Shown: positions 609 through 18,546 of the stretch, piece by piece
How the letters are laid out: each line of letters opens with the position of its first letter
Position numbering within the stretch: position 1 is the first letter of the stretch
Source: Jejuia pallidilutea
Lineage (GTDB): Bacteria; Bacteroidota; Bacteroidia; Flavobacteriales; Flavobacteriaceae
Direction: 5' to 3'
Assembly: GCF_002973595.1 (NCBI RefSeq)
Contig: NZ_PVEO01000003.1
Location: forward strand, 186,001-250,000
Length of the DNA: 64,000 nucleotides
Notes under the pieces: model-generated
Told to the model about the DNA's origin: nothing
Seen by the model: only the letters and a program-made list of their open reading frames with translations
The model's database searches: none
Position numbers and translations under genes: made by a program

Positions 609-1169
609 TTATTCTAGTGTTATTAAGTTATTAATGACTGTTTGTTTAAATTGATGTGTATATATAAAATTGGCTTTATCTTCAAACAATCTCAAAACAT
701 AGTCGCGCAATAATTTTGTTTCCTTGTTAGACAACATAGCTTTATAAGAAGAATGTTTATACGTTTCAAAACCTTTTATAAACCCATGATGTACTGGGTT
801 TGTATGAATATAAACTATAATATTTTTAAGATATGTTTCGTTTTCAATTTTAATCCTTGAAAATCTATCTTTAAATAAACTCCCTGTTCTGTTATAAGCT
901 TTATTTATAGATTTTGAATAGGCGTTAAATAGGTTTGAAAAGGATTGGGATATTTTTTTTGCTTCTATATTTTCCTTAGTCTTAATTAATAAGTGAAAGT
1001 GATTTTTTAATAAGCAATATGCTAGAATAAAACAGACACTACTAATATGTTTATCCATCAAAGTTAGAAAATAAGCATAGTTTTTTTCTTGAATAAAAAT
1101 ATTTTCTTTATTATTTCCACAATTGTAAATATGAAAATATGAATCGGGTAAGAGTACTTCGTATTTCAT
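609..1169 (-). CDS. REP-associated tyrosine transposase (RAYT, Y1/HUH family)
   Basis: 186 aa. The HUH metal-binding motif is seen as NHFHLLI (His57, His59), and the presumed nucleophile Tyr120 lies in YIHTNPVHHG, the hallmark C-terminal motif of COG1943 single-strand transposases. The segment NRTGSLFKDRF before it is also typical of the family. All key residues are present, so the enzyme looks intact. It is framed by two identical 33-bp palindromes, at 571-603 and 1184-1216, as expected for a RAYT with its cognate REP sites. It interrupts a biosynthetic cluster without obviously disrupting a neighbour. RAYTs are usually single-copy domesticated enzymes acting on dispersed palindromes rather than classical IS elements. 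Confidence 0.9.
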   Translation of the reverse strand: MKYEVLLPDSYFHIYNCGNNKENIFIQEKNYAYFLTLMDKHISSVCFILAYCLLKNHFHLLIKTKENIEAKKISQSFSNLFNAYSKSINKAYNRTGSLFKDRFSRIKIENETYLKNIIVYIHTNPVHHGFIKGFETYKHSSYKAMLSNKETKLLRDYVLRLFEDKANFIYTHQFKQTVINNLITLE

Positions 1170-14702: not shown

Positions 14703-14972
14703 GAAGTAGCTTCTTCCACAATGTGTATTTACTCACTTTTTATTTATTTGTAAATTAATGTGTTCGTGAATCGCTTTTAAATCCTTTACTTATTTTGTAA
14801 AATCTTCAACAATGGCGATTTCTTCTTGATTCAGTCCGTACAATTCATAAACCATTTGGTCTATATCCTTGTCAGTTTTATCAATTTCTGCTTTTAATTC
14901 CACTGCTTTTTGTTTTTGCTCGTTAAAATACTGCATCCATTCGGCTTCTTCGCTTAATGTTAGTTTTTGATA

Positions 14973-15010
14973 TGCCAAGGGAGCATTTGCCAAGGGAGCA
15001 TGCTCCCTTG
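14973..15010. repeat. In-gene palindrome cluster A (two 15-bp units, ending in a 20-bp palindrome)
   Basis: Unit TGCCAAGGGAGCATT (14973-14987), then the perfect palindrome CAAGGGAGCATGCTCCCTTG (14991-15010). On the coding strand it reads in frame as SREHAPLANAPLA within the specificity-domain end of the restriction gene. Confidence 0.9.
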
Positions 15011-15798
15011 AGGTGTCTTTTGCTGCCTTTTTACGGGCTTTTTCTAATTCTTTTAGAAATTCTGCAAAGTCTAACTCGTGCCAGTTTTGGAGTTTTTTGG
15101 AAGCTTTTACAATTGTGAATTTGGATAATAGTAATGTCAAAAATCGATTAATGTGTGACTGATAATTTGTGTTTAAGTCTATTAATTTTTGTGCTTTATT
15201 AATATATAATTCTTTATTTAATCGAACAGTGTTGGGAATAGGAATAGATTCAAATGCTAATTTGGTTAAATTTGTATTTGATTCGCCAAAATATAGATTA
15301 TAAAAGTAACTTATTAAATTCGAATTTAATACTGCTAGATAGAACCTCACATCATCATCTGAATTATTAAGATTTACAAGGTTTGCATTGGGAAAAATAA
15401 TTTTATTTGTTAAATCGACAGTTGCAAAAATTTTGTTTTTATTCTGCCCAACTATTCTTTGAAGAATAATTTTTGGATTGAAATGCCAACTTTTAGTTTT
15501 ATTATCAATATTTTTTGCAAAAACATATTTTTCAACTTCATCAATGTAGTATCTGTGAATATCTCTTCCCTCAAGATATTTTATACAGTATTTACTTAAA
15601 AAATCCGAAGATTTAACCTCGTTGGCGTTAAATATCCCTTTATCGTATATGTTATTTTCTTCTACAATGTTTTTAGGTACACTCATCCACCCTTTATGTA
15701 AATTTAAATATGTTCCAAAAGTATTTTCCAAAGAAATTAATTTATCAATTATTGAATTGGTGTTAATTATTATTTTGCTATCATATTTTTCTTTAATA

Positions 15799-18546
15799 TC
15801 AGATTGATTTAGAGTGTTTTTGATTCCTAAAAACATCAAGTAAACCTTTATATTTTAATTGTAATGATTTATCTACAGTTTTTAAAATTGTTTTATTTTT
15901 TTCATTAATAACTTTTGTTATGATAATTATTGAAGTTTCAGTATTTACATCATTAAATGGATAAAATCTGTAAGGAAAATCAATAATTTCATTTATTGAG
16001 GTCTCATTTATTAAGTAATTCCTTAAGTTTTTAAAACTAACGTTCGTGAAATAAGAATTTGGTGTTATAAAACCAATTTTTCCACTTGAAATTAAAAATT
16101 CATTAATTGATTTGTATAGAAAAATCTGATATAAATCCATTTCTGAAAATAGCAAATCATTAAATCTGTTCCAATAAAAATTTCTATCGATTTCATCAAT
16201 TTGTTTTGTGCCAACATAAGGCGGATTTCCAATCACCACATCAAAACCACCAGTATATTCAGGTTCAAGTGCTTTATCTACAGGTACACACATGCTGTCT
16301 ATAATGGTTTGTAATGTATTACTGTGTGGTGGCAACTCGTGCTTTTGGCGGTTGTTTTGTATGTAACGCAAGGTATTGTCTAGCTGCTCTTGTGTAGTTA
16401 CTTCTTTTGGTGTGCTGTATTTTTGGGACCAAAGTGGTTTGCGTTTTTTATTTTCCAAGGGAGCATTTGCCAAGGGAGCATTTGCCAAGGGAGCATGCTC
16501 CCTTGTGATAGGAACGTGCTCTCTTGTTTTATTAACTTCTTTTGCTGTTATGGCTTTTATTTTTTGCATTATAGATGGTATTTCTTCTATATCGCAAGCT
16601 ATTAAAAGGTGTATGTGGTCTGCGCAAATGTTGTAGGCTAATAGGTTTAATGCATCTTCTTTTACAATATCTGCTATGGTTTGTGTTATTAATAGATCAT
16701 CTTCTGGTGTAAAATAAATGACATTAGGATACGGATTTGTACCTGCATCGCGTCGTTCTCTTACTTTATATTTCTTCATCCTAGCACTGGTTCGGCTATC
16801 GTGTATAGCGGTAGTGATATGGTATATTTTTTTGTTCTTTTCTTTAAAAACTTCTGGAAATTCGTTTTGCCAATTAAAGGCCTTATCGCCTGCAACCGTT
16901 GGGTCGTCAATTAAACTGTTACCACACTTAATGTTGTTGTTTAAAGACGTTAGTTTTCTGCCTTTTTGTGCTGTGCGTAACCAAAGTGAGAGTTTTGCAA
17001 TTTCTACACTTTCTTCATTTATATCTACACCGAACAAATTGTTTTCTAAAATGGCATTTTCTACTTCGCTTAATACCATTGCATCTCCAAACAATTTGGC
17101 TTGTAATTCGTCTATGTATTGATGTTCTGCAATTAAAAACTCTAATGCTTGGTTTAGAAAAGCACCACTACCACAAGCTGGGTCGCAAATGGTAATTTGC
17201 AATAACCATTTTCTGTAATCTTCTAATTTCTGAGATAGTTTTTTTAAAGTCGCTTTTTGCCTGCCTCTACGTTCTTTCTCGTATTCTGCTTCTTGTATGT
17301 CAAGTTCGGTTTTCTTTTCCTCGCAAAGTTTACCAACGGTATTATCTACGATGTATTTGGTAATGTATTTTGGCGTGTAAAAAACGCCGTCTTTTTTACG
17401 TTTCGATGTCTTTATCTCTACTAAGGGAGCATGCTCCCTTGAGGCTATTTCCGCCTGTATTTCATCAATATCGTTTAAGGAATGCTCAAAGATGTGCCCC
17501 AGTATATTAACGCTTACTTCGCTCTCAAAATCGTAGTTGCTTAAATTAAGGGTGTGCTTGTATAGTAAGTCATCATTAATTTTGATGTTGTCTAAAATAT
17601 CATCTGGTGCAAATAAACCGCCATTATAGGCGAAAATGTCATGTTTTTGTCCTTTGTGTCCCGTGTTCATGTAGCCAAAGTATTTTTGAAAACGGTTGTA
17701 TAAGGGGAAATATTCGTCGTATTTATCTTTTAAGTCGGTCCATTGGTTAATTATAGCACGAATTGAGTTTGGTGGTAATAACAATCTATCTTCTGCAAAA
17801 AAGATAAACAGAAAACGGTCGAGTAGTTTTTGGGTTTTCTTGAATAACGTTAGTTTGTCGTATTCGGGATTTTCTTTCTGTATGGCATCAAAAATCTCGT
17901 TCCTAAATGATGCATAATCTTTGTATAATTTTTTGGTGACGTTTTCTTCTTGGGTTAAAGATTCGTTTTTTATCTTTTTTGGAATATCGTTTAAAAGATA
18001 CTCGGCAGATAAACACAAATACAAGATATTAAAACGTTCTTTTGATAATTGGAATAGATTGAATTCTTCAAACTCTACGGCATTATCTATATAAAAACGC
18101 AACTTTTCGAAATTAGACGTAATGACGTAATTACAACCAGGTTGATTGTTTTTGTATCCAAATGCTTGGGTTTCTACTCTGCTTAAATCGGTTGTGTTTG
18201 TACCTTTCAGCTCAATTACGGCAAGTACTTTTGCCAATGGAGCATTTGCCATGGGAGCATGCTCCCTTGAGAGTATAGCACCATCTGTTTTTCTAGAACC
18301 TCTTATGTTTTTTAATTCTGTGGTGAGATTAAAATTAGGCGTTGGGTTTTTGGTATAGCCTAAAACATTAACAAAAAGGTCAATCAAGAATTCACCTTGG
18401 TATTGTTCTTCTTTAGAGTTTCTAATATTCTCTTGTATGGTTGAGTTATGAAAATGCTCTGTAAATTTTTGGTAAACTTTATTTACTTTTTCGGTGTCTA
18501 AGCCTTTTAAGTATTTATTTAAAACAGAATTTTGGTATAAACTCAT
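15799..18546 (-). CDS. Type IIG restriction-modification enzyme, nuclease and methyltransferase part, with nested Y1 transposase domain
   Basis: 915 aa up to a premature stop. The N-terminal nuclease has Asp88 (KTDGAIL) and Glu112-x-Lys114 (VIELKG), a PD-(D/E)xK pattern. The N6-adenine methyltransferase has motif I CDPACGSGAF (Asp455) and motif IV GNPPY (Asn774). Between FNWQNEFPEVF and GGFDVVIGNPPY, normally adjacent, lies an extra block (about 572-745) with DHIHLLIA (His644, His646) and LRYIQNNRQKH (Tyr728), a Y1/HUH transposase domain. Palindrome-derived peptides occur at 93-105, near 373-380 and near 680-700. The frame then runs into a stop because of one extra base. The gene points away from the tRNA at 18735. 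Without the shift it would be one enzyme of about 1,260 aa that methylates and cuts one DNA site. Confidence 0.85.
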   Translation of the reverse strand: MSLYQNSVLNKYLKGLDTEKVNKVYQKFTEHFHNSTIQENIRNSKEEQYQGEFLIDLFVNVLGYTKNPTPNFNLTTELKNIRGSRKTDGAILSREHAPMANAPLAKVLAVIELKGTNTTDLSRVETQAFGYKNNQPGCNYVITSNFEKLRFYIDNAVEFEEFNLFQLSKERFNILYLCLSAEYLLNDIPKKIKNESLTQEENVTKKLYKDYASFRNEIFDAIQKENPEYDKLTLFKKTQKLLDRFLFIFFAEDRLLLPPNSIRAIINQWTDLKDKYDEYFPLYNRFQKYFGYMNTGHKGQKHDIFAYNGGLFAPDDILDNIKINDDLLYKHTLNLSNYDFESEVSVNILGHIFEHSLNDIDEIQAEIASREHAPLVEIKTSKRKKDGVFYTPKYITKYIVDNTVGKLCEEKKTELDIQEAEYEKERRGRQKATLKKLSQKLEDYRKWLLQITICDPACGSGAFLNQALEFLIAEHQYIDELQAKLFGDAMVLSEVENAILENNLFGVDINEESVEIAKLSLWLRTAQKGRKLTSLNNNIKCGNSLIDDPTVAGDKAFNWQNEFPEVFKEKNKKIYHITTAIHDSRTSARMKKYKVRERRDAGTNPYPNVIYFTPEDDLLITQTIADIVKEDALNLLAYNICADHIHLLIACDIEEIPSIMQKIKAITAKEVNKTREHVPITREHAPLANAPLANAPLENKKRKPLWSQKYSTPKEVTTQEQLDNTLRYIQNNRQKHELPPHSNTLQTIIDSMCVPVDKALEPEYTGGFDVVIGNPPYVGTKQIDEIDRNFYWNRFNDLLFSEMDLYQIFLYKSINEFLISSGKIGFITPNSYFTNVSFKNLRNYLINETSINEIIDFPYRFYPFNDVNTETSIIIITKVINEKNKTILKTVDKSLQLKYKGLLDVFRNQKHSKSI
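15829..15833 (-). other. Frameshift in a homopolymer (A5/T5) splitting the type IIG gene
   Basis: Coding strand GAT-GTT-TTT-AGG runs to a stop 10 codons later. With four T instead of five it reads GAT-GTT-TTA-GGA and continues into the 14790-15836 frame. This implies a one-base expansion (or a two-base loss) in this gene copy, or a sequencing error. Confidence 0.8.
16320..16840 (-). mobile_element. Y1/HUH transposase-like domain nested in the restriction gene
   Basis: Codes for about 170 aa that begin KIYHITTAIHDSR and carry the HUH motif HIH (644-646), LWSQKYSTPKEVTTQEQL, and the tyrosine motif YIQNNRQKHEL (Tyr728). This is the order found in RAYT and IS200-like transposases. It sits precisely between two methyltransferase blocks and keeps the reading frame. 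A triple palindrome cluster lies inside it, between HUH and Tyr motifs. Whether it is active is unknown. Confidence 0.75.
16455..16526. repeat. In-gene palindrome cluster B (three units plus a degenerate half)
   Basis: Two 15-bp units CCAAGGGAGCATTTG (16455-16469, 16470-16484), then the 20-bp palindrome CAAGGGAGCATGCTCCCTTG (16486-16505), then a decayed arm AACGTGCTCTCTTG (16513-16526). It is read in frame as TREHVPI, TREHAPLA, NAPLA, NAPLE inside the nested transposase domain. Confidence 0.9.
17422..17441. repeat. In-gene palindrome cluster C (single palindrome)
   Basis: AAGGGAGCATGCTCCCTT (17423-17440) is a perfect 18-bp palindrome, read in frame as SREHAPLV just before the methyltransferase region of the restriction gene. 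No extra 15-bp unit is present here. Confidence 0.9.
18232..18269. repeat. In-gene palindrome cluster D (two units, slightly diverged)
   Basis: Unit TGCCAATGGAGCATT (18232-18246), then TGCCATGGGAGCATGCTCCC to 18266, with perfect core GGGAGCATGCTCCC (18253-18266). It is read in frame as SREHAPMANAPLA between Asp88 and Glu112 of the nuclease motif. Confidence 0.9.

Follow-up and report, generated by a model that had tools for sequence, protein, structure and literature searches.

RAYTs and REPs are widespread, and to our knowledge it is still open how REPs move. In-frame REPs inside standalone tnpA_REP genes have been described for TnpA_Y1 subclass 2.4, in the sections of Quentin et al. 2018 that treat this subclass (PMC6006769). 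The locus presented here, which lies in a 64 kb stretch of DNA (the window, meaning the whole stretch analyzed), shares with the RAYT/TnpA_REP system (REPtron), as outlined in those sections, a Y1/HUH domain, associated short palindromes and, in nine loci of its gene family, copies flanking the gene; it differs from what is outlined there in that a type IIG restriction-modification enzyme encloses the domain, the nuclease, linker and methyltransferase regions of this enzyme and its C-terminal region contain palindromes as well, the hairpins lack the GT[AG]G foot, and no copy lies outside the gene in the window genome (PMC6006769). With TnpA of IS200/IS605 (ISDra2, IS608), for which part of the same source gives hairpin recognition as established (PMC6006769), the domain has in common the fold and the HUH and Tyr residues, but no bracketing transposon ends were found around it, it has a single nested copy in the window genome instead of multiple ones, and the palindromes are spread along the whole gene.

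Two further classes of intragenic palindromes are described in sections of another source (PMC3733652): Rickettsia palindromic elements, which also lie in frame within protein-coding genes, but in many unrelated ones, whereas the palindromes reported here occur mainly in one gene family with its own candidate enzyme; and the REPs of De Nocera 2013, likewise tolerated within coding regions, which are found in diverse genes and are GTAG or CGTC tagged, unlike ours. Homing insertion elements in methylase genes resemble the locus as in-frame nuclease-coding inserts; as the relevant part of the source describes them, they encode an HNH endonuclease, whereas the insert here is of the HUH/Y1 type and its homing is putative (PMC11855218). 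Among the matches listed in a search of open-licence papers, none concerned a restriction enzyme with a RAYT inside it.

The host gene and its four palindromes

The palindromes are hosted by a type IIG (Eco57I/MmeI-like) restriction-modification gene on the minus strand (14790–18546), which a frameshift divides into two ORFs: an N-terminal one of 915 aa (15799–18546, minus strand; nuclease part, helical spacer and methyltransferase with the nested Y1) and a C-terminal one of 349 aa (14790–15839, minus strand; TaqI-like specificity domain and C-terminal part). The first matches Eco57I, MmeI_Mtase and N6_Mtase above cut-off, MmeI_N and MmeI_hel being slightly under it, and the second matches TaqI_C above cut-off; the nuclease motif of the 915-aa ORF we take to be D88...E112-x-K114. 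With a nuclease, an adenine methyltransferase (NPPY) and a specificity domain, the gene, here split by the frameshift, is, judged by its domains, that of a type IIG enzyme of putative activity. Nested-Y1 genes are uninterrupted in 54 of 61 cases over the available stretch, contig-cut genes included; that the window's own gene is frameshifted counts against the explanation preferred below.

Within this gene the palindrome CAAGGGAGCATGCTCCCTTG occurs in four copies, two of them decayed, with its 14-bp core GGGAGCATGCTCCC at 14994–15007, 16489–16502, 17425–17438 and 18253–18266. At up to two mismatches the core has four matches in the 64 kb window, where shuffles predict 0.03; at up to one mismatch it is found at four places in the whole genome (4,110,363 bases, 34 contigs), all in the type IIG gene, and its reversed control pattern has no match in these 4,110,363 bases. 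A first, sequence-only reading had noticed the four copies and none elsewhere in the window, and both observations were reproduced. It had assigned them to a single gene, which is correct for the type IIG gene as a unit, but this gene now consists of two overlapping ORFs with the 14991 cluster in the second.

Complete 20-bp palindromes are present at 14991–15010 and 16486–16505, the copy at 17423–17440 has lost its outermost pair, and that at 18250–18269 deviates in a single arm base. The 15-bp units that had been seen beside three clusters are half-sites, located at 14976–14990, 16456–16485 (two) and 18235–18249 (decayed), and all four clusters fit the minus-strand reading frame, giving peptides of the (S/T)REHAP(L/M) type, as the first reading had it. 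From the N-terminus onwards, the cluster at site 1 (18235–18269, SREHAPMANAPLA) falls in the nuclease part, in the loop that separates its D and ExK strands; site 2 (17423–17440, SREHAPLVE) in the linker preceding KRKKDGVFYTP; site 4 (16456–16505, TREHAPLANAPLANAPLE), comprising the palindrome 16486–16505 and two half-site units, in the Y1 loop from HUH to W; and site 6 (14976–15010, TSREHAPLANAPLA), comprising the palindrome 14991–15010 and one half-site unit, in the C-terminal region beyond the specificity domain. A decayed relative (REHVP) adjoins the site 4 cluster.

Three window segments of the modelled N-terminal ORF overlap stretches with pLDDT below 50, that is, three clusters overlap predicted low-confidence loops, and such placement lends good support to the earlier proposal of spread into tolerated loops. 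As single strands, three of the four clusters fold better than shuffles (z of -3.5, -4.3 and -2.5; -1.5 for the fourth), which any palindrome would show.

The nested Y1 domain

The nested module (16252–16845, minus strand; residues 568–765 of the ORF) is situated between a CGNSL segment and the methyltransferase NPPY, at a point where most of the Y1-less homologues shown continue straight through as F-x-K-G-G-FDVVIGNPPY. Its RAYT-like Y1/HUH core (16333–16824, minus strand) has DHIHLL, a W and a Tyr in YIQNNRQKHEL; both His, the W and the Tyr are present in all 30 aligned nested domains, for which extraction demanded both His, a demand that none of the 29 loci submitted failed. The window domain matches Pfam Y1_Tnp above cut-off, and its predicted structure has a pLDDT of 86. 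Each of the best 30 PDB matches of the model, with TM-scores of 0.38–0.49, is named in its title as a transposase of the IS200/IS605 or the REP type, in some cases as a 'putative' one; 4ER8, in which TnpA_REP is complexed with a REP hairpin, is among them. NCBIfam NF047646 (REP-associated tyrosine transposase) matches all 30 domains at E ≤0.01, the window domain reaching 42.5 bits against a curated cut-off of 80; and RAYTs are standalone genes, whereas this domain is nested in type IIG genes.

A search of 295 class genomes with the domain at E ≤1e-30 retrieved five genomes, in four of which the domain is nested and in one of which it is cut by a contig end; no close standalone relative was found at this threshold. 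The domain-only search of these 295 genomes added four genomes, two sharing a genus, and all four have a palindrome. Eight standalone RAYT-like ORFs (1.9e-11 to 3.8e-10) had no palindromes in the fetched loci by the same criterion, nor had a ninth, weak match (L160). The window's Y1 domain had no match in plasmid and phage records and one weak relative in IMG/VR.

The insertion site is the same in the compared genes, one scan being biased since it used patterns at that site, and across homologues Y1 identities are decoupled from N-terminal identities. Two loci, L122 (LPDHVHLLC) and L123, bear a different nested Y1, and at L201 an HsdR-like restriction gene of type I contains another nested Y1 together with an in-frame palindrome of its own.

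Palindromes in homologues and in other genomes

Perfect palindromes are present in 57 of the 63 nested-Y1 homologues and in one of the 49 Y1-less ones (52 of 63 and one of 49 for consensus-type palindromes alone). This count places L122 in the nested-Y1 group, as it does L088 and L116, assigned by hand since the pattern misses their HUH motifs; it excludes the repeat fetches L053–L056, L085 and L090, and it retains the near-copies L064/L080, L066/L111, L019/L133 and L021/L142, which were reduced in the tree. In the gene set of the tree, from which L044, L081, L102, L110, L126, L138 and L141 are absent, palindromes are found in 52 of 58 nested-Y1 and one of 43 Y1-less genes. According to this quick tree of 101 N-termini, the nested Y1 changed state at least 22 times, 15 of these changes being forced by supported branches; the 15 phylogenetically independent contrasts have palindromes with Y1 in 12.8 (mean) and against in 0.0 (median p 2.4e-4). 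Together with the within-gene homogeneity described below, these results give good support to the proposed tie between palindromes and nested Y1.

By our criterion, six of the 63 nested-Y1 genes lack palindromes: those of L065 are imperfect, contig ends truncate L086 and L123, and L074, L101 and L114 are real negatives. The Y1-less gene with a palindrome, L136, belongs to a MAG (G1090) that carries such palindromes and in which nested Y1 was not found. Palindromes are denser in nested-Y1 genes (108 per 217 kb) than in their flanks (16 per 297 kb); the commonest form is (A)CAAkGGr-N6-yCCmTTG(T), and 19 of 103 deviate from the consensus. Comparison of the same gene in relatives, which the sequence-only reading had proposed, rules out that the peptides are ancestral to the enzyme family: four aligned Y1-less sisters lack them, and the Y1-less paralogue in the window genome itself, L061, has no palindrome.

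The genome search proposed along with it ruled out a generic dispersed repeat, both in the window genome and in the family. Exact AGGGAGCATGCTCCCT was found in two of 397 family genomes, both holding a nested-Y1 gene; six others have one or two near-matches with a different centre or an imperfect arm, and none of these six shows this Y1 family. CAAGGGN8CCCTTG is present in all five genomes with the nested gene and in four of 18 without. With a loose pattern, 52 nested-Y1 genomes gave 208 matches (reversed control 29), 0–13 per genome with chance matches included, and 50 genomes picked as Y1-less, at least one of them repeated (G085 = G1088), gave 108 (control 44), a modest contrast. Sixteen of the 108 are in G1092, the genome of L139, which has another gene with a nested Y1 and three palindromes, plus scattered copies. 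Among the matches listed, the centre is perfectly palindromic in 32 of 75 (14 of 19 genomes) in the nested-Y1 set and in 16 of 75 (two of 21 genomes, G1090 and G1092) in the Y1-less set.

The system had been called self-contained, which is not fully supported in view of the nine loci with palindromes adjoining the gene, the scattered, mostly intergenic copies of some genomes, and G1090. In the window genome no copy exists outside the gene, and nothing there favours spread in trans. REP-like, as the sites had been termed, is apt in that short palindromes accompany a Y1 gene, but dispersed copies are few, the four of the window genome all being in the gene instead of many and mainly intergenic, and the GT[AG]G foot is absent: it accompanies four of 103 palindromes, compared with 4.1% of random positions, which rules out a canonical GTAG REP.

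The reading frame, said to be always the same, is so in the window but not across homologues: of 110 palindromes (six from two near-copies), 56 and 53 are in two frames and one is in the third. In L084 an identical 22 bp stands at four sites in two frames (NKGINPLV and TRGLIPLS), and such reading of identical DNA in two frames within one gene implies that DNA spreads rather than peptide and speaks against a simple protein repeat. Palindromes flank the specificity domain on both sides in 16 of 55 genes. Same-gene cores at least 300 nt apart have a mean identity of 0.83, a value that none of 5000 shuffles reaches, versus 0.44 when shuffled, and at 26 shared sites in related gene pairs 16 cores differ. 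L080 and L111 were left out of the site and homogeneity analysis, and one gene from each of ten related pairs out of the homogeneity test; the contig-cut L087 and L109 were assigned to site 4 and L098 to site 5 by their peptides.

Origin and meaning of the palindromes

Overall, the first interpretation is partly supported. We consider it probable that REP-like hairpins are seeded into a restriction gene by the RAYT-like module that it encloses, through a presumed mobilisation. A type IIG enzyme would have acquired a RAYT-like Y1/HUH single-strand nuclease module inside its methyltransferase domain; the module would recognise a short palindrome able to form a hairpin when the DNA is single-stranded, and HUH cleavage and rejoining during replication could copy this palindrome, perhaps chiefly in cis, into the module's own gene and next to it. 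The survivors would be in-frame, stop-free insertions in exposed loops, seen as S/TREHAPLA-type peptides, and turnover with homogenisation would leave copies alike within a gene and other cores at the same sites of sister genes. The host or the Y1 module might derive some benefit from this. In favour of this explanation are the conserved HUH and Tyr residues of the nested domain, the association of palindromes with it, their loop positions and frame use, their homogeneity within genes and their greater density there than in the flanks; besides the frameshift, the missing GT[AG]G foot, the six nested-Y1 genes lacking palindromes, the 19 palindromes that deviate from the consensus, L136, the want of copies outside the gene in the window genome and the modest loose-pattern contrast count against it.

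Rather unlikely, in our view, is passive hitchhiking, in which the palindromes came with a Y1 module that takes no active part and were spread by ordinary recombination, gene conversion and template-switch repair. Template switching perfects quasi-palindromes, the tandem half-sites suggest slippage, the three palindromes of L088 share the core GCATGC but have perfect, unrelated arms, and 68 of 103 palindromes lie within the Y1 module; however, 25 of 55 palindrome-bearing genes have copies beyond it, Y1-less sisters about 90% identical across residues 1–568 carry none, and the same type of element adjoins the gene and occurs at distant places. It is improbable that DNA or mRNA hairpins curb the expression of a restriction enzyme that could do harm, with copy number set by selection for control: restriction genes are often under tight regulation and three window clusters fold better than shuffles, though this is expected of any palindrome, but the positions span the whole coding region, with 50 of 103 in a single Y1 loop and not near the start, and cores and sites turn over. 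That the peptides serve the protein as linkers or as binding motifs, with the palindromic DNA a by-product, is hardly credible, for although in-frame insertions recur in the same loops and the third frame is almost unused while also open for GCATGC cores, which leaves some room for selection on the peptide, two frames are used equally, L084 reads the same DNA as two peptides, the window segments have low model confidence and the peptides are missing from Y1-less sisters.

That most of the nested-Y1 genes examined carry palindromes and nearly all Y1-less ones do not suggests our preferred explanation, in which the nested domain sows mobile palindromes into the gene that hosts it. Candidate enzyme and target share one gene, with no other copy in the window genome, Y1-less sister genes are natural controls and cores differ between genes, so that cognate recognition, cis-spread and homogenisation are directly testable. 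A transposase-type domain has been built into a restriction enzyme family and gained or lost many times, mainly in Bacteroidota genes, which bears on the diversification of restriction genes. More doubtfully, the Y1 module could be a homing-like unit entering a fixed methyltransferase point, the palindromes serving as exchange sites for a swap of specificity segments by the HUH nuclease; if so, L201 would be a second, independent instance of such a module, and a transposase-derived module would diversify the targets of a restriction system.

Palindromes inside a type IIG restriction gene

The gene at 14790..18546 on the minus strand is a type IIG restriction-modification gene with an MmeI/Eco57I/N6 methyltransferase and a TaqI-like specificity domain (its MmeI-like N-terminus and spacer are both just under the Pfam cut-off), and a Y1_Tnp domain sits inside its methyltransferase. 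Four copies of GGGAGCATGCTCCC were found in the window at up to two mismatches, against 0.03 expected by chance, in the clusters 18235..18269, 17423..17440, 16456..16505 and 14976..15010. This confirms the four clusters of the sequence-only reading, and the genome-wide check that it called for (up to one mismatch) returned four copies, all within this gene. Its description of a single gene holds in that all four copies lie in one restriction-modification gene, but the gene is now split by a frameshift (15799-15839), which separates the methyltransferase from the specificity part, into two overlapping ORFs (15799..18546 and 14790..15839). Over the stretch covered, seven of 61 genes with a nested Y1 are interrupted, this one among them. 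In genome G047 (loci L024 / L010) a TGA stop shortly after the palindrome of the Y1 loop splits the gene.

Three of the four clusters are accompanied by 15-bp half-site units, two arrays of which are detected by Tandem Repeats Finder, and folding as hairpins is clearly better than that of shuffled sequences at three clusters only. The structural model of the 915-aa ORF (pLDDT 76, pTM 0.55) has five segments with pLDDT below 50, and three of them (residues 96-102, 372-389 and 677-701) overlap the three palindrome clusters of that ORF.

Among homologues, 103 palindromes in 55 genes were assigned to sites, with three loci (L087, L109 and L098) reassigned by hand: 50 are in the Y1 loop between HUH and W (48 before reassignment); 17 follow the Tyr motif (16 before); 17 are in the C-terminal region (20 before); eight are in the loop of the nuclease D-ExK hairpin; five are in a methyltransferase loop; four are in the linker before KRKKDG; and two are elsewhere. 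Twenty five genes (26 before reassignment) have a palindrome outside the Y1 module, and in 16 of the 55 the specificity domain is flanked by palindromes on both sides. Outside the gene, palindromes of this type were found at nine of 118 loci (including six repeat fetches), all nine with a nested Y1; 12 of these 14 copies are within 530 nt of the gene ends given by TBLASTN. The density is 108 per 217 kb inside genes with a nested Y1 versus 16 per 297 kb in the flanks, counted before locus L122 was regrouped.

The nested Y1 domain and its association with palindromes

In most Y1-less homologues compared, F-P-x-x-F runs straight into x-K-G-G-FDVVIGNPPY, while Y1-bearing homologues have about 200 residues between the two motifs. 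Both HUH histidines, the W and the Tyr, which we take to be the equivalent of the catalytic Tyr of E. coli TnpA_REP, are present in 30 of 30 aligned nested domains; the extraction script required both histidines, not W or Tyr, and none of its 29 input loci failed. All 30 match the NCBIfam model of REP-associated tyrosine transposases at E ≤0.01, the window's domain being under the curated cut-off. In the AlphaFold2 model of the nested domain (pLDDT 86) the sole segment of at least three residues with pLDDT below 50, residues 104-124, is encoded by the palindrome cluster. A structure search of PDB with this model placed entries titled transposases at ranks 1-30 (E between 1.2e-4 and 1.5e-2; query-based TM-score 0.38-0.49) and an unrelated entry at rank 31; 4ER8, a structure of TnpA_REP with a REP hairpin bound, stands at rank 26. 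In a sequence-profile comparison with solved structures, IS200/IS605 transposases come out as the relatives, and 4ER8 reaches E 0.27. Plasmid and phage records searched with the window's domain gave no match. One viral contig in IMG/VR (L200) contains a sequence weakly related (34%) to the query region. At L073, L110 and L121 the loop between HUH and W is enlarged by tandem half-site or low-complexity repeats.

Relatives were collected by searches aimed at the protein, not at palindromes: a protein search (397 genomes of the family), a profile search (395 genomes of the order) and a scan covering 84,980 species genomes, which gave at least 336 relatives, the best 80 of which were used, and which detects Y1 only at this insertion point since its patterns adjoin it. 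Palindromes (loop of at most 2 between perfect arms of 9 or more, with an arm GC of at least 40%) were present in 57 of 63 genes with a nested Y1 versus one of 49 others (L136); before L122, which has a different nested Y1, was moved, the counts were 56/62 and 2/50. With consensus-type palindromes only, they were 52/63 and 1/49. L074, L101 and L114 have a nested Y1 and no palindrome by this criterion, and Y1-less L019-L022 have none in the nuclease D-ExK loop.

A quick tree built from 101 N-terminal sequences that end before the insert requires a minimum of 22 changes of the nested-Y1 state, and supported branches force 15 of these. Across 15 independent contrasts, an average of 12.8 paired palindromes with Y1 and 0.0 showed the opposite (p: median 2.4e-4, from 1.2e-4 to 3.4e-3). 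A search of the class with the domain alone (295 genomes) added four genomes, two of one genus, with new sequences, and palindromes were found in all four, in one of which the gene is cut between two contig ends.

DNA as the spreading unit

The palindromes had been read as always in the same frame, which is so for the four in the window; across homologues, two frames are used almost equally (56 and 53 of 110 palindromes, with one in the third). At L084, an identical 22 bp at four sites is read in two frames, as NKGINPLV and TRGLIPLS. The spreading unit is DNA. Its commonest form is (A)CAAkGGr-N6-yCCmTTG(T), and 84 of 103 palindromes fit AA[GT]GG[AG]-N6-[CT]CC[AC]TT; a GT[AG]G foot is absent from the palindromes.

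Within a gene, copies separated by 300 nt or more have similar 8-nt cores (53 pairs, 27 genes): mean identity is 0.83 versus 0.44 for shuffled cores, and none of 5000 shuffles was as high. Related genes were compared in 27 overlapping, non-independent pairs (identity of 79% or more over the aligned parts). Of 26 shared sites, 16 have different central 6 nt and 10 identical ones; another 26 palindromes in the first gene of a pair had no partner. At one insertion point in the nuclease D-ExK loop, three cores occur, GCATGC, TTTAAA and CTTAAG (window, L018 and L067, respectively). L064 and L109 differ by CTTAAG versus GCATGC at both sites that they share. This pattern within and between genes looks like concerted evolution.

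The loose pattern CAAKGGN8CCMTTG had 208 matches in 52 nested-Y1 genomes (0-13 per genome; reversed control 29) and 108 in 50 genomes chosen as Y1-less (0-16 per genome; control 44), the top count of 16 belonging to G1092, which turned out to carry a nested-Y1 gene. Among the matches listed, perfect centres occurred in 14 of 19 nested-Y1 genomes versus two of 21 chosen as Y1-less (G1090 and G1092). Several results speak against the proposed reading, among them the missing GT[AG]G foot, the nested-Y1 genes that lack palindromes and the hairpin folding that clearly exceeds shuffles at three clusters only. G1090 holds palindromes, and a search for a nested Y1 in it found none; one of the palindromes, CAATGGGGCATGCCCCATTG (L185:1697), is in frame close to the beginning of a DNA-methylase frame (N6_N4_Mtase) of 535 codons. 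Some genomes carry scattered copies: four of five in G123 are intergenic, and eleven sampled copies in G759, G763, G768 and G789 are all outside ORFs of at least 80 codons. Six genomes of the family without the nested domain have one or two near-matches each to the window palindrome.

Possible module exchange and relation to known REP systems

N-terminal identity correlates weakly with Y1 identity (r 0.31; 1326 pairs, 52 genes). L018 and L115 are 93% identical in the N-terminus and 42% in Y1; L079 and L095 are 62% identical in the N-terminus, 88% in Y1 and 40% in the next 60 residues, a stretch with 39-53% identity in nine comparable pairs. The Y1 module therefore seems to move or be exchanged independently of the N-terminal part beside it, but recombination together with repeated loss may account for the pattern instead.

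An HsdR-like type I restriction gene (L153 / L201:2988-6869) contains a different nested Y1. Its in-frame 22-bp palindrome with perfect arms and a loop of 2, a short way past the Tyr motif, is the only one in 10 kb with arms of at least 8 and a loop of at most 4. The window also holds a standalone RAYT-like ORF (609-1169, minus strand, 186 aa, Y1_Tnp) flanked by a pair of identical 36-nt hairpins (570-605 and 1183-1218), whose 31-nt core has six copies in the genome at up to two mismatches; 570-1218 is a REPtron-like unit, and its palindrome and the restriction gene's are unrelated.

De Nocera et al. (2013, PMC3733652) report that REPs occur in coding genes and mention the Rickettsia elements, and Quentin et al. 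(2018, PMC6006769) describe REPs that lie in frame within subclass 2.4 tnpA_REP genes, as a rule between HuH and Y, in a set that excluded unusually long proteins as gene fusions or annotation errors. In that subclass the REPs lie in the tnpA_REP gene, as described there, whereas here Y1 is nested in a restriction gene; among the papers listed by our literature search, none is on a RAYT nested in a restriction enzyme. The nested domain probably recognizes the palindromes and spreads them.
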